A stretch of DNA of 64,000 nucleotides, from NCBI RefSeq assembly GCF_900215485.1, contig NZ_OCMZ01000002.1, positions 1 through 64,000 on the forward strand. Reading direction: 5' to 3'. A program made the position numbers and the translations under genes. Under the pieces are notes generated by a model that did no database searches, was not told the DNA's origin, and saw only the letters and a program-made list of their open reading frames with translations. How positions within the stretch are numbered: position 1 is the first letter of the stretch; each line of letters starts with the position of its first letter. The DNA comes from Nitrosovibrio sp. Nv4 (GTDB lineage Bacteria; Pseudomonadota; Gammaproteobacteria; Burkholderiales; Nitrosomonadaceae). Positions 4,768 to 9,805 of the stretch are shown one piece after another.

Positions 4768-6913
4768 TTACGCCGTAAAGCTGGCGAAGATGGGCTTTCA
4801 CATTTTCCCTTTGCTGTCCGACCGCAAGACGCCGCCCAAGGGCATGCACTTCAAGGAGAGCGCGACACGGAGTGTTACGGCGCTGGTTGGTTGGTTCGAT
4901 AACACTGACGCGAACATAGGAATATTCACCGAAAAGTTCGGCGACGATAAGGCGCTTATCGTTGTCGATGTTGACGTAAAGGATGGAAAAAATGGAGAAC
5001 AAACATTACTCAAGCTCGAACTCGAGGGATTTGAACTACCAGAAACCCTCGCTCAAAGGACTGCAAATGGAGGTAGACACCTTATATTTGCGAGCGACGC
5101 ACCCGTCCGCCCAGGCGCGAATGTACTTGGTAAAGGCCTCGATATCCGAAGCGGGGGATCTTACATTGTCGGCGCAGGAAGTGTTATCGGAAGCGGAGCG
5201 TACACAATTGACGACACCCCAATCGCTGACGCCCCCGACTGGCTCATTGAGCGGTGCCGGGCAGTAAAGGAAAAATCCACCGTCGAAGCATCAATCGTGG
5301 AAGGCGTGGATCATGATCGCGCCGCCACCCGAGTAATCAAGTATTTGGAAACCGAAGCGCCATTGTCCATCGAAGGGCAGGGTGGCGACGAGACAGCGTA
5401 CCGGGTTGCTGCGCGCTGCAAGGACTTGGGAATAAACGAGAGTGGTTGCGCGCAGTTAATGTATGACCACTGGAACGAGCGCTGCTCCCCACCGTGGGCG
5501 TATGTCGCGCTTCTCGTCAAGGTGCGCAACGCGTACGAGTACGGCCACGAGCCGCAAGGGATAGCCGCGCCCGAAGCCGAGTTTAAACCGGTTCCCACCC
5601 CGCCAGGTGCGCCCCAACTGAAGGACCCCATCGAAGCCTTGAACGACCGTTACGCTTTCGTGCTGGCGGGCGGCGGGGCGCAGGTGCTTTGGGAAACGAC
5701 CGACGCGAACGGGAAATACAAGCTCGATCACCTATCGCTCGGGGCGTTCCACGCCGACTTCGCCAACAAAAAGATGGTCGTCGGGAAGAAAGAACAATCA
5801 ATCTCGCAGCTTTGGCTTGAGTCGAAGGGCCGCCGCAGCTACGCGGGAATCGTGTTTATGCCGGGGCAACAAGCTCCGGATCGCTTTTATAACTTATGGA
5901 AAGGATTTCAATATGAACCAGCCGAACGATACACCAACCACCCCGCCGTCGAGCAATTCATCGAACACGCCCGGGATAACGTTTGCCGTGGTGACGTTGT
6001 GCTTTTCAAGTGGCTCATCGGTTATTTTGCGCACCTTGTCCAACGACCATGGGAGAAACCTCTTGTTGCACTTGTGTTCCGCGGAGGGAAAGGAGTCGGG
6101 AAGAACGCTCTCGTCGAACGAGTCGGCACTTTGCTCGGAGGTCATTTCCTTCTTACGTCGAACCGCCGATATCTTATCGGAAACTTCAACGGGCACTTAG
6201 AAAACTGTCTGCTCTTCACCCTCGATGAAGCCTTCTGGTCCGGAGATAAACAGGCGGAAGGCATTATCAAAGACCTGATTACCGGGCGCGAGCACATCAT
6301 CGAGCACAAGGGCGAGAAGCCCTACTCAGTGGATAACCGTACGCGGGTTTGCATTATCGGTAATGAAGAGTGGCTTGTGCCTGCCACCCATGACGAGCGC
6401 CGTTTCGCTGTGTTCGATGTGGGCGACGGCCGTAAGCAGGACCGGGAATATTTCCAGTCCATGCGTGAAGGTATGGAGAAAGACGGTTACCCCCATCTGC
6501 TGCGCTACCTGATGGACTTCGACCTTACAGGAATTGATATCAATCTCGCGCCAGTGACGAACGCCCTGCTCGACCAGAAGAATGAATCACTGGACCCGTT
6601 GCATCAATGGTGGCTGGACTGCCTGGAAGAAGAACGCATTGTAGGTTCCGAGTTCGGCGGCTGGCCGGAAGATATCGAGTGCGAACGCTTCCGTGCGGCA
6701 TTCAAGAGGTATGTAAAAGATCGCAATGTTCGAAGCCGCGTGCCCGAGGACAGAGCAATAGGGCGGCTCATCAAGCAATGCGCGCCTGGTATCACGAAGT
6801 CAAGAGCACGGCGGGGTGATGAACTGCCCTACGTTTACCACGTCCCGAGAGTTGAGATTTCCCGAACAGATTGGGAGAAGTTCATCGGGCATAAAGTAAG
6901 GTGGGAACAATGA
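4754..6913 (+). CDS. Phage primase-polymerase/helicase (PrimPol + DUF5906)
   Basis: A 719-residue protein combining replication priming and unwinding. The N-terminal bifunctional primase-polymerase (AEP) fold shows VVDVDVKDG (Asp72, Asp74), the GGRH motif (His109) and LDIRSGG (Asp130). The C-terminal half is a superfamily-3-like primase-helicase of the DUF5906/VirE class, with Walker A GGKGVGKN at about 442-449 and a Walker B-like LFTLDEAFW at about 485. I prefer the ATG at 4754 to the GTG at 4745 because GAGGTG at 4740-4745 is well placed as its ribosome-binding site. Its stop overlaps the methyltransferase ATG. With the polymerase, SSB and nuclease it completes an autonomous phage replication module. 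Confidence 0.9.
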   Translation: MKSIDYAVKLAKMGFHIFPLLSDRKTPPKGMHFKESATRSVTALVGWFDNTDANIGIFTEKFGDDKALIVVDVDVKDGKNGEQTLLKLELEGFELPETLAQRTANGGRHLIFASDAPVRPGANVLGKGLDIRSGGSYIVGAGSVIGSGAYTIDDTPIADAPDWLIERCRAVKEKSTVEASIVEGVDHDRAATRVIKYLETEAPLSIEGQGGDETAYRVAARCKDLGINESGCAQLMYDHWNERCSPPWAYVALLVKVRNAYEYGHEPQGIAAPEAEFKPVPTPPGAPQLKDPIEALNDRYAFVLAGGGAQVLWETTDANGKYKLDHLSLGAFHADFANKKMVVGKKEQSISQLWLESKGRRSYAGIVFMPGQQAPDRFYNLWKGFQYEPAERYTNHPAVEQFIEHARDNVCRGDVVLFKWLIGYFAHLVQRPWEKPLVALVFRGGKGVGKNALVERVGTLLGGHFLLTSNRRYLIGNFNGHLENCLLFTLDEAFWSGDKQAEGIIKDLITGREHIIEHKGEKPYSVDNRTRVCIIGNEEWLVPATHDERRFAVFDVGDGRKQDREYFQSMREGMEKDGYPHLLRYLMDFDLTGIDINLAPVTNALLDQKNESLDPLHQWWLDCLEEERIVGSEFGGWPEDIECERFRAAFKRYVKDRNVRSRVPEDRAIGRLIKQCAPGITKSRARRGDELPYVYHVPRVEISRTDWEKFIGHKVRWEQ

Positions 6914-7935
6914 CCGCCTACTACAACGAGTTCGACCCCATCGCAGCCGAGTGGCTGCGTAACCTTATTAAAGCCGGGCACATAGCGCCAGGTGATGTTG
7001 ACGAACGGAGCATACTGGATGTTAAACCTGACGACCTCAAGCGCTACACTCAATGCCACTTCTTCGCCGGTATCGGCGTGTGGTCCTACGCCCTGCGCCG
7101 CGCCGGGTGGCCCGATGACCGCCCCGTGTGGACCGGTTCCTGTCCTTGCCAACCTTTCAGCGCGGCAGGCCGACATGCTGGATTTGATGACGAGCGGCAC
7201 TTATGGCCTGCGGCCTTCCACCTCATCGAAGAGCGCCGACCTCTCGTCGTCTTTGGCGAGCAAGTTGCGAGCAAGGACGGATACGCTTGGCTCGACCTTG
7301 TTCAAGCTGACTTGGAAGGTACAGGTTACACCGTCGGGGCGATCGTTGCCCCTGCTGCGGGCTTCGGGGCGCCCCATCAAAGACACAGAATGTATTGGGT
7401 GGCCGACGCCGACGAAGAGCAACGGGGACGGGGGACAGGTAGGGAATTACAGCCCTACGGGACGGCGGCCGGACGGCAGCAAGGCCACGGTATCGCTAAA
7501 CCATATTGCGAAGCTGGCGGGATGGCCGACTCCTACGCTAATGGACAGCGAACAGGCGGGTGGGCAGGGTTGCATATCCAGGGGGAAGCGCGGGCATTCG
7601 CTGAACAGTGCGGCGAACTTGGCACCTTGGGCAACCCCGGCGGCACGGGATTGGAGAAGCAATTCGGCGAGCGAAGAACACCACCTAAAACGGATGCTGG
7701 AACCGCGGGGAAAACCATTGAGCGAGCAGGTGCATCAAATGGTTTCTGGTCCGCAGCCGACTGGATCTACTGCCGGGACGAAAAGTACAGGCCAGTTGAA
7801 CCCGGCACATTCCCGCTGGCTCATGGGGCTGCCGCCCGAGTGGGACGCCTGCGCGCCTACGGAAACGCTATCTGCGCTCCGCAAGCGGAAGAGTTCATTA
7901 AAGCCTACTTAGCTTGCGACTCAGTTGCGACTTGA
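6910..7935 (+). CDS. Phage DNA (cytosine-5)-methyltransferase
   Basis: A 341-residue C5-methyltransferase that should transfer methyl groups from S-adenosylmethionine to cytosine, probably protecting phage DNA from host restriction. Motif I is FFAGIG (51-56) and motif IV is GSCPCQPFS with catalytic Cys80. Motif VI is a variant, FGEQV (115-119), in place of ENV. Motif VIII is [11 protein letters not shown] (156-166) and the C-terminal motif X region is YGNAICAPQ. The ATG overlaps the PrimPol stop (ATGA) and AAGGTGG lies just upstream. The recognition domain between motifs VIII and X is low in complexity and rich in Gly/Arg, which fits the constraint from a second open frame over the same DNA (next entry). 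Confidence 0.9.
6995..7912 (+). CDS. Overlapping +1-frame ORF within the methyltransferase gene
   Basis: A second frame is open for about 305 codons on the same strand, wholly inside the methyltransferase gene. From about 7130 on, its product is not random. It has [16 protein letters not shown], then three W-x-TP motifs ([24 protein letters not shown]) and a C-terminal [16 protein letters not shown]. From memory these match a family of phage hypothetical proteins found beside or overlapping methyltransferases, some of which I recall as free-standing genes. No clear ribosome-binding site precedes the GTG at 6992 or the ATG at 6995, so the start is uncertain and a downstream start is possible. 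The alternative is a shadow frame that seems conserved only because the methyltransferase is conserved. Confidence 0.5.
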
Positions 7936-7975: not shown

Positions 7976-9805
7976 TTAATTTCCCCGCATGAACATCTTG
8001 TCGAGATCCGTGAGGCTGATTTCGAACCATGTTGGTCTGCCGTGATTGCATTGGCCAGCACGTTCAGTTATCTCCATTTCGCGTAGCAGCGCATTCATTT
8101 CCGGAACGGTGAGGGTGCGATTGGCGCGAACCGCCCCATGGCAGGCCATGGTCGAAAGAAGTTCGTTGCGTCTGCTGGTCAATACCTGGCTGGCTCCAAA
8201 CTCACGGATCTCGCTCAATACATCGCGTGCCAGTTTTACCACATCGGCATCCTTGAGCGTGGCTGGAACTGAGCGCACGCCCAGCATCGTTGGAGAGAGC
8301 GCAGAGATCTCGAACCCGAGTTCGTTCAGCAGGGCGTCGTTTTCTTCGGCGGTAGCAATATCCAGGCTATCCGCCTGAAATATCGCGGGGATCAGCAAGG
8401 GCTGCATGGAGAGAGTGTGGTTATCCAGCGCGGATTTGAGTTTTTCATACAGAATCCGCTCATGCGCCGCGTGCATATCCACGATAAGCAAGCCCCGTTC
8501 GTTCTGCGACAGAATATAGATGCCGAGGAGCTGCCCCAAGGCGAAACCCAATGGCGGAATATCCTGTTTCTGAGTACCTGTTGGTGTTATTGACACATCC
8601 GATGACTTTGGGTCGGGATTATTGGGACAAAAGAGTGTCGAATAAAACGCCTGGGATTGGGCTACCCCTGTAGCAGACACAGGGGGAACAAGCGGCATGA
8701 AGGTTTGCCGCGAGTAGACCGAAAGCGTATCGGTGTTCTTTGACAACGCGCCCGCCATGGTGGAGGAGTTGCTGGTTTCCTGCCGGCTCCCAATCGCGAT
8801 TGAAGCCGCTGATGCGGATTGAGGCGATGCCAGTGCCTTGTGGACCGCATGAAAAATGAACTGATGCAGTGCACGCGAATCACGGAATCTCACCTCGGTT
8901 TTAGTGGGATGCACATTGACATCCACGCCCTCGGCATTCATTTCGAGAAACAGCACAAAAGCGGGATGGCGATCCAGATGAAGTATGTCGCGATAGGCCT
9001 CGCGTAGCGCATGGGAAACCAGTTTGTCGCGTACGAAGCGGCCGTTGACAAAGAAATACTGTGCGTCGCGAGAAGATCGCGAGTATGCGGGCAACGCCGC
9101 TGAGCCCCATAGCCGTAAATCCACTGCCTGCTCATCAACGAATACCGAGGTCTGCGCGAACTCATCGCCCAGTAAGGCCGCGATGCGCTGCCTTGCGTCC
9201 GCCGCACGTAAATGACTGCGCACGATGCCGTTGTGCTGCAGCGTGAAAGCGATATCGGCGCGCGACAACGCAATGCGCTTGAATGTTTCTTCGCAATGGG
9301 AAAATTCAGTGGCTTCGGTTTTCAGAAATTTACGTCGGGCGGGTGTGTTGAAGTAGAGATTATGCATTTCCACCGTGGTGCCATTGGCAAGCGCCGCAGG
9401 TTCTGGCCCTGATAGACGGCTCCCTTCCACTTCTATCCGCCAGGCATGCTTCCCCTCGGGCGTGCGGCTTGCCAGCGTCAGCCGCGAAACTGCGGCCATA
9501 CTGGCCAGTGCCTCACCACGGAATCCCAGACTTGCTACTTTTTGCAAATCTTCCAGCGCATTGATTTTGCTCGTGGCATGGCGGGCAAGCGCCAGGGGCA
9601 GATCATCTTTGGAAATTCCTGCTCCATTATCCGCGACGCGTATTTGTTTGATTCCGCCCTGCAAAATTTGCACCGCTATTTCGGTCGATCCGGCATCAAC
9701 ACTGTTCTCCAGCATTTCCTTGAGGGCAGAGGCGGGGCGCTCTACCACCTCTCCAGCGGCAATCTGGCTGATGAGCAGATCGGGTAACAGTTTAATCGCG
9801 TTCAT
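7976..9805 (-). CDS. mutL: DNA mismatch repair protein MutL
   Basis: A 609-residue MutL. The N-terminal GHKL ATPase is intact, with EMLENSVDAG near residue 30, DNGAGI near 60, TSKI near 77 and GFRGEAL near 93. The C-terminal dimerisation domain carries DMHAAHERILYE, which fits the DQHA-x2-E-x4-E metal-binding endonuclease motif. This MutL should therefore nick DNA itself, as in bacteria without MutH. The typical family ending HGRPTWFEIS...MRGN is present, so the 3' end is undamaged. The gene is convergent with the phage methyltransferase, 40 bp away. Confidence 0.97.
   Translation of the reverse strand: MNAIKLLPDLLISQIAAGEVVERPASALKEMLENSVDAGSTEIAVQILQGGIKQIRVADNGAGISKDDLPLALARHATSKINALEDLQKVASLGFRGEALASMAAVSRLTLASRTPEGKHAWRIEVEGSRLSGPEPAALANGTTVEMHNLYFNTPARRKFLKTEATEFSHCEETFKRIALSRADIAFTLQHNGIVRSHLRAADARQRIAALLGDEFAQTSVFVDEQAVDLRLWGSAALPAYSRSSRDAQYFFVNGRFVRDKLVSHALREAYRDILHLDRHPAFVLFLEMNAEGVDVNVHPTKTEVRFRDSRALHQFIFHAVHKALASPQSASAASIAIGSRQETSNSSTMAGALSKNTDTLSVYSRQTFMPLVPPVSATGVAQSQAFYSTLFCPNNPDPKSSDVSITPTGTQKQDIPPLGFALGQLLGIYILSQNERGLLIVDMHAAHERILYEKLKSALDNHTLSMQPLLIPAIFQADSLDIATAEENDALLNELGFEISALSPTMLGVRSVPATLKDADVVKLARDVLSEIREFGASQVLTSRRNELLSTMACHGAVRANRTLTVPEMNALLREMEITERAGQCNHGRPTWFEISLTDLDKMFMRGN

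Follow-up and report, generated by a model that had tools for sequence, protein, structure and literature searches.

A conserved +1 reading frame nested in a prophage C5-cytosine DNA methyltransferase gene of Nitrosovibrio probably encodes a second subunit of the same enzyme

The first 64,000 nucleotides of contig NZ_OCMZ01000002.1 of Nitrosovibrio sp. Nv4 (NCBI RefSeq assembly GCF_900215485.1; the whole of this stretch is termed the window) carry a prophage gene for a C5-cytosine DNA methyltransferase, here called alpha, within which a second protein, beta, is encoded in the +1 frame of the same strand. Substitution patterns show that each of the two is a conserved protein-coding gene. The very long same-strand overlap suggested by the initial annotation of this DNA, made from its letters alone, is confirmed as real, since selection acts on both frames. 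Most simply, the locus would code for a single heterodimeric C5-cytosine methyltransferase whose subunits are written in two frames of one DNA stretch. To this reading we assign a probability of about 0.77, since related phages carry the two parts as split pairs, profile comparisons link these pairs to beta, part of alpha is predicted to be unfolded, and C5 enzymes made of two polypeptides are known. Alpha would supply S-adenosylmethionine (AdoMet) binding, catalysis (motifs I–VIII) and motif X, while beta would supply the target-recognition region with its WxTP repeats and the motif-IX helix. Both would be translated from one messenger RNA by separate initiation, so that alpha, from motif VIII to motif X, would serve chiefly as a linker whose sequence is set by beta. 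The features of the locus are as follows.

6910..7935, plus strand: alpha, C5-cytosine DNA methyltransferase catalytic subunit (PF00145, phrog_363, AlphaFold model; motifs I, IV, VI, VIII and X)
7006..7010, plus strand: Shine-Dalgarno-like CGGAG, 8 nt before ATG 7019 (enrichment of start plus Shine-Dalgarno site in 104 relatives)
7019..7912, plus strand: beta, nested +1-frame protein, probably 297 aa from ATG 7019 (open frame, constraint, enrichment of start plus Shine-Dalgarno site, phrog_1008)
7063..7077, plus strand: alpha motif I, FAGIG, AdoMet site (sequence)
7144..7152, plus strand: alpha motif IV, PCQ, catalytic cysteine (PCQ in 103 of 104 representatives)
7154..7909, plus strand: constrained core of beta, LSARQA to the last codon (synonymous constraint sharp from alpha residue 85)
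7255..7266, plus strand: alpha motif VI, GEQV (pattern in 103 of 104 representatives)
7378..7389, plus strand: alpha motif VIII, QRHR (pattern in 101 of 104 representatives)
7400..7411, plus strand: beta repeat 1, WPTP (sequence)
7447..7707, plus strand: alpha residues 180–266, predicted to be unstructured where a target-recognition domain would sit (model confidence below 50 at 180–182 and 190–266)
7523..7534, plus strand: beta repeat 2, WPTP (sequence)
7628..7639, plus strand: beta repeat 3, WATP (sequence)
7796..7843, plus strand: putative motif-IX-like helix segment of beta, 16 residues (3/391 alpha fourfold sites changed; tied to canonical motif IX via actinophage-type beta)
7861..7872, plus strand: alpha motif X, GNAI (GNA[IVL] in 104 of 104 representatives)

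The coordinates and motif description of the initial annotation, a methyltransferase frame at 6910–7935 and a long +1 open reading frame (ORF) with W-x-TP repeats, were right: the maximal +1 ORF extends from GTG 6992 to 7912 (306 codons) and contains the motifs WPTP, WPTP and WATP. Alpha can start at ATG 6910 or GTG 6901 and ends at 7935; residues are counted from codon 6901 in the conservation and start analyses and from 6910 in the AlphaFold model. The protein matches PF00145 above the cut-off (E 9.6e-17) as well as phrog_363 (E 2.9e-87), and its motifs I, IV, VI, VIII and X place it among the C5-cytosine DNA methyltransferases, the motif I pattern being present in 99 of the 104 alpha representatives.

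Stop codons in the +1 frame of most related genes, which had been named as the pattern that would speak against a second product, were not observed. When relatives were picked with alpha as the sole query, the top 80 of 527 viral loci yielded 71 distinct genes. In 70 of these the +1 frame runs for 258 or more codons without a stop (median 315); the exception is locus L147 with 176 codons. The same 71 genes have a median of 59 codons in the +2 frame and of 156, 128 and 99 codons in the three antisense frames. In a wider set of 128 distinct genes, which adds loci found by beta, the window itself and four annotated phages, all 128 keep the same +1 relation, with the +1 ORF shortened in L058 and L147. 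Synonymous codon shuffling of these 128 genes places a mean of 3.7 stops in the open stretch, and the mean probability of obtaining none is 0.02 (highest single gene, 0.20). Since the shuffles insert stops and 70 of 71 relatives are open, the open frame, as judged from these sequences, is not due to chance. Within alpha residues 98–324 only six +1 stops occur in 104 genes, as opposed to about 282 expected, and stops are abundant at both ends (in 80/104 genes at residues 21–30 and in 76/104 at residues 325–340).

The codon-level selection test proposed in the initial annotation likewise found constraint in both frames, through synonymous-site rates and stop depletion. Rates were taken from 47 independent pairs differing at 2–30% of nucleotides. 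Change at alpha codon positions 1, 2 and 3 amounts to 0.065, 0.045 and 0.301 at residues 1–32, to 0.095, 0.053 and 0.167 at residues 50–175, to 0.353, 0.273 and 0.283 in the recognition region (176–288), and to 0.091, 0.043 and 0.117 at residues 289–335. In the recognition region the first position of alpha, which is the third position of beta, changes fastest in 32 of the 47 pairs versus 9 (P 3e-5). Fourfold sites of alpha, when pooled, changed at 213 of 635 before the overlap versus 509 of 4469 at residues 85–324 (Fisher P 3e-41). Along the gene the rate is 0.30–0.36 at residues 1–36, 0.20–0.30 at 37–84, 0.10 at 85–96 and 0.05–0.065 at 133–156, reaches 3/391 at 301–312 and lies at 0.22–0.23 past the end of beta; five 12-residue windows inside the core keep values of 0.21–0.25. 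For beta, 400 pairs drawn from 47 divergent representatives have identities of 0.482, 0.557, 0.299 and 0.755 in four regions, compared with 0.366, 0.294, 0.163 and 0.328 in shuffles, and in each region the value lies above all 40 shuffles. The mean BLOSUM score of +1 changes shows a modest shift, being −1.14 versus −1.39 expected inside the overlap and −1.49 versus −1.57 outside. Taken as a whole, these comparative data make beta near certain as a conserved protein. The onset of constraint falls at CCT TTC, alpha residues 85–86, where CCT is found in 95 and TTC in 102 of the 104 representatives. This block, CCTTTCAGCGCGGCAGGC (window 7153–7170 and relatives), is largely conserved at alpha-synonymous sites, its onset is abrupt and lies about 45 codons past the likely start of beta, and its conservation may not be due to the LSARQA peptide alone.

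Canonical C5 enzymes provided two controls. The first consisted of 27 enzymes drawn from the 30 top PF00145 loci in 121 related genomes: 26 have no long +1 frame (median 0.196 of gene length versus 0.199 in shuffled genes), and the remaining one, L405, is of phage type and carries beta. The second comprised 79 distinct C5 enzymes from phages, all related to a single enzyme; a +1 frame spanning 75% of the gene without a stop occurs in 0/79 and one spanning 50% in 1/79. Their fourfold rates are 0.31–0.49 throughout, codon position 3 changes faster than position 1 in every window, and the beta profiles match none of the 79.

Several lines of evidence argue that beta is equipped, inside alpha, with a separate start codon and ribosome-binding site. 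Of the 104 representatives, 103 offer an ATG, GTG or TTG downstream of the nearest preceding +1 stop and no later than alpha residue 60, and a start preceded by a Shine-Dalgarno site is found at residues 28–45 in 91% of the 104 as opposed to 32% in shuffles (standard deviation 4.6%), or in 39% versus 8% at a stricter energy. The extent of the open frame had been given correctly, whereas the start at 6992 is probably too early; ATG 7019, with CGGAG upstream, is the best-supported one and probably the one used. Strong constraint does not set in until about 7154, and later starts at ATG 7175 or 7187 are possible. Starts with Shine-Dalgarno sites are also enriched at residues 88–97 (0.60 versus 0.37 in shuffles), and a second, shorter beta from there is possible. 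In phage N15 a strong site, GGGAGG, precedes TTG/ATG at residues 95–96.

The arrangement extends across several alpha families. In addition to the window/N15 type (F1), there is a second family (F2, or ATGAATG type, represented by L258), in which 74 of 75 genes have a +1 frame free of stops across 75% or more of alpha. In 72 of the 75 the two starts are fused in ATGAATG, 4 nt apart, with beta beginning at codon 2 of alpha. Fourfold change in F2 is 7/226 at residues 201–220 but 0.42 at 81–100, which indicates a beta constrained only in parts. In a third family, the Rhynn type, 27 of 34 genes have an open +1 frame that covers 75% of alpha, and the +2 frame is likewise long (median 101); the selection signal appears weak because there are only four independent pairs and because of this long +2 frame. 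The LHTSCC-type split pairs described below add a fourth form. By profile, all 354 viral loci tested contain a +1 beta that shares 100 codons or more with alpha, a figure that combines sets of 80, 80, 79, 80 and 35 in which contigs recur and that relies on profiles partly built from the same loci. Beta was also found in 17 of 398 genomes drawn from the phylum, at 20 places including that of the window, and alpha lies in the expected frame at 20/20. No intact stand-alone beta was found in the loci and genomes examined, which is a statement of co-occurrence by partly shared profiles and not an independent census. The suggestion that some homologues do not overlap a methyltransferase holds only in part: alpha accompanies beta in the expected frame at all of these places, and it is in the split pairs that beta lies mostly downstream, sharing 182–260 nt with alpha.

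Searching with beta (tblastn) matched 190 phage records. Most of the 60 listed overlie genes annotated as methyltransferases, and most show one annotated feature there, usually with that name. Both frames are present in phages N15, epsilon15 and the BASEL phage Bas75; the match in Bas77 is weak (E 0.07). Both are annotated in K1ind3, fKuEco01, PhiXhv-28 and the Paenibacillus phages Bloom and Lily. In Pseudomonas phage PMG1 (L164, around 2300–2400) the N-terminal part of alpha is out of frame and beta is open; there, only the beta frame is annotated, as similar to an Mte8-like protein. The name “Mte8” in this sense was found in one paper, the accessible part of which does not explain the overlap (PMC5582158). 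A literature search, with subscription journals mostly outside its scope, found no paper on the pattern in phages. Some copies show disturbed frames. At L545 (Citrobacter amalonaticus plasmid, 1384–2283) the locus is decayed, with several stops in the alpha frame and an open, truncated beta, the sole open beta seen with a broken alpha; in the plasmid copy L546 both frames are broken up, and these two are the ones examined of 15 plasmid matches. At L356 (around 1500–2260) a frameshift swaps the two frames and one ORF receives both the methyltransferase and the beta profile match. In Edwardsiella phage eiAU (L438, 1384–2805) the beta frame has no stop and continues into the downstream N6-adenine methyltransferase gene, possibly as a natural fusion.

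The role of beta is best approached through relatives in which the frames separate. In LHTSCC (gp81/gp80), Catdawg, EmyBug and Upyo, alpha terminates just behind motif VIII; the +1 ORF runs on through PTP repeats, EWMMG..GW/GH and the GN motif X, which reads GNGVV or a variant. By sequence, this continuation is the recognition region together with motifs IX and X, which belong to beta there because the alpha frame is closed. Of 22 loci of this type (18 viral, 4 annotated), 20 are split +1 pairs (including L456, L459 and L443); the 182–260 nt mentioned above were measured as the overlap of open frames in 17 of them. In profile comparisons, 18 distinct split betas match F2 beta with E 6e-25, F1 beta with E 2e-11 and canonical motifs IX–X with E 4e-5 (probability 71%), compared with E 0.22–0.45 in reversed controls; the F1 alignment reaches the LNP...WLMG segment, after which a short basic tail ends beta. 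The GN motif X pattern is found in 0/60 F1 and 0/75 F2 betas, motif X sitting in alpha in these families. The other two of the 22 loci, L463 (557–2279) and L457 (969–3210), hold motifs I–VIII, IX and X in one ORF in single-chain order.

Alpha itself appears to lack what beta would provide. A recognisable motif IX is absent, one pattern, applied alike to all sets, occurring in 0/104 F1 and 0/75 F2 alphas but in 56/60 F1 and 60/75 F2 betas and in 12/26 and 45/79 of the canonical enzymes. The AlphaFold model of alpha, built on 60 F1 and 5 F2 rows, has predicted local distance difference test (pLDDT) scores of 85–98 per ten-residue block over residues 1–170, except for a dip to 69 at residues 81–90, then 41–45 at 301–320 and 91–93 over 321–340, the motif X helix. 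No helix or strand is predicted in residues 174–283, and two short strands follow at 284–296. As modelled, alpha thus has neither motif IX nor a folded target-recognition domain in its own chain. On these sequence comparisons beta is probably the recognition and motif-IX subunit of the same enzyme. Of the roles floated in the initial annotation, a partner or specificity subunit is the one that the comparative evidence favours, and an anti-restriction protein is less favoured. It is also fairly likely, if less so, that catalytic and recognition halves in two frames represent a standing architecture of phage C5 methyltransferases, in which the recognition half slides between nested, downstream and single-ORF forms and the linker is dictated by specificity evolution in the other frame.

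A number of observations weigh against the heterodimer. Beta matches nothing in Pfam, NCBIfam or the PDB sequences, and its AlphaFold model is poor (pLDDT 63, predicted template modelling score 0.29). The alignment behind it omitted L058 and L147 from 64 representatives on account of their +1 stops, and two more were dropped for structure prediction. Among predicted viral structures the model has four matches with E below 0.001, namely an Edwardsiella phage methyltransferase, the FoX4 homologue and two unnamed proteins. Beta does match phrog_1008, “DNA methyltransferase” (E 2.6e-30, profile positions 13–286 of 329), a name that appears to derive from the overlap. The motif-IX pattern is loose, and a stricter form, with D, E or A after the proline, occurs in only 5/60 and 1/75 betas. 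Motif IX of the window beta is tied to the canonical one only through the split betas: direct comparison of F1 and F2 beta with canonical enzymes gives non-significant values (E 0.09 and 0.44), with the best alignment on motif IX. The alignment of F2 to the split betas does not extend to motif IX; moreover, some of the likeness between betas falls over alpha motif VIII, where alpha itself could have caused it. L463 has motifs IX and X in the alpha frame and yet keeps a +1 frame matching beta, so that in some lineages alpha, by its sequence, may need no partner; L457, whose frame is disturbed again at motif X, may contain sequence errors. N15 has a +1 stop at residue 67, so that its beta must start later. 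Finally, in the two-polypeptide enzyme M.EcoHK31I the predicted recognition domain lies in the large subunit according to the accessible part of the source, so that only the motif IX part of the proposal is precedented (PMC3404938).

Some of these points would suit a beta that is a real protein with its own job, such as an anti-restriction factor, a regulator or a DNA-binding protein, and is merely nested in alpha. Strong selection on beta despite the missing functional family match would fit such a role, as would the seemingly complete alpha of L463 next to a beta-like +1 frame and the eiAU frame, whose continuation into an N6-adenine methyltransferase gene shows an association that is not with C5 enzymes alone. 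This explanation is nevertheless unlikely, given that intact beta without alpha was not seen in the loci examined, that the homologous ORF of the LHTSCC type holds motif X while alpha ends after motif VIII, and that alpha is modelled without a folded recognition region. Programmed frameshifting, which would yield a fusion of the alpha N-terminus to beta, could account for the abruptness of the synonymous constraint at CCT TTC, as expected at a shift site. A shift there was set aside: upstream of it +1 stops are already depleted (9 versus 31 expected at residues 41–50, 0 versus 10 at 51–60 and 1 versus 12 at 61–72) and start signals are enriched at residues 28–45. Furthermore, beta of F2 starts at codon 2 of alpha, and a fusion at residue 85 would lose motifs VI–VIII, which leaves frameshifting improbable.

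It is harder still to assume that no second product exists and that the open +1 frame arises as a by-product of the alpha protein sequence, of codon usage or of an RNA element. Long extra frames are common in GC-rich genes, as the antisense medians of 99–156 codons illustrate, and the five core windows with fourfold change of 0.21–0.25 and the only modestly conservative +1 changes are what such a by-product could leave. Shuffles that keep protein and codon usage destroy the frame, however, canonical enzymes are without it, +1 identity exceeds every shuffle in all four regions, and start signals and stops are placed where a gene needs them; a by-product is thus very improbable. Least credible is a hidden homing endonuclease resembling the out-of-frame HNH element of ShiLan, even though the setting, an out-of-frame ORF in a phage methylase, is the same (PMC11855218). 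As far as the accessible text describes it, that element is a discrete, scattered insertion, as opposed to an overlap found at every one of the viral loci here, and no HNH domain was found in beta with Pfam, PHROGs or NCBIfam.

The heterodimeric methyltransferase would belong to a prophage. By profile searches, the first 7.9 kb of the window resemble a phage replication module with genes in the order DUF2800, Enc34-type single-stranded DNA-binding protein, family A DNA polymerase, Prim-Pol/DUF5906 and methyltransferase; mutL adjoins the last (7976–9805, minus strand). The window begins at base 1 of its contig in a 3.27-Mb genome of three contigs, and the remaining prophage lies outside it. Because no restriction enzyme was found among the few neighbouring genes examined and the setting is a prophage, the enzyme probably protects phage DNA from restriction. 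The DUF2800 gene is read in two exactly meeting plus-strand frames, 217–735 and 699–1304, covering profile positions 1–184 and then 185–368, for which a frameshift mutation, an assembly error and a programmed shift are candidates. Elsewhere in this genome there is another nested pair of alpha and beta, belonging to F2 (L261), at about 1,089,500–1,090,400 of the same contig, on the minus strand.

If beta is a specificity subunit, work with alpha alone would miss activity or specificity. To our knowledge, the pair is among the longest conserved same-strand overlaps in double-stranded DNA phages, and it offers a clean test case for the evolution of two interacting proteins in one DNA stretch. As N15, epsilon15 and Bas75 carry both frames, direct tests are possible.

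Among known systems, the closest are the natural two-polypeptide C5 enzymes M.AquI and M.EcoHK31I; the accessible part of the source describes the large subunit of M.EcoHK31I as containing motifs I–VIII and X and the small subunit as containing only motif IX, and cites a 1995 title according to which two proteins are required for methylation (PMC3404938). The window alpha, which also has motifs I–VIII and X and no recognisable motif IX, resembles this large subunit. M.EcoHK31I (YGGCCR) is listed in the accessible table as a Type II restriction-modification system (PMC6456624), whereas the window holds a prophage gene; the likeness between the two is one of described motif layout. M.AquI (CYCGRG), by the same partial source, is split after the catalytic half, its small subunit consisting of the distal variable region and motifs IX–X, a layout shared by the LHTSCC-type pairs (PMC3404938). 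In the window, in contrast, motif X remains part of alpha, and beta lies within alpha instead of following it. ShiLan is alike in having a second frame inside a mycobacteriophage methylase and, as described in the accessible text, differs in that its frame is a mobile, patchy insertion encoding a nuclease, while beta is a conserved second frame (PMC11855218). The same nested +1 pair, with both frames annotated, is present in Escherichia phage K1ind3 as ORF30 and ORF29 (“Mte8-like”), and the Lily entry reads “g62 internal gene”; in the phage records that annotate both frames, no statement on function or selection was seen. A difference from M.EcoHK31I is that the repeats of the window beta look like a recognition part. 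The small subunit of M.EcoHK31I is probably also encoded in an overlapping alternative frame. If so, the window locus would count as another member of the M.EcoHK31I kind, and the new part presented here is the breadth of the arrangement in phages together with the evidence for selection on both frames.

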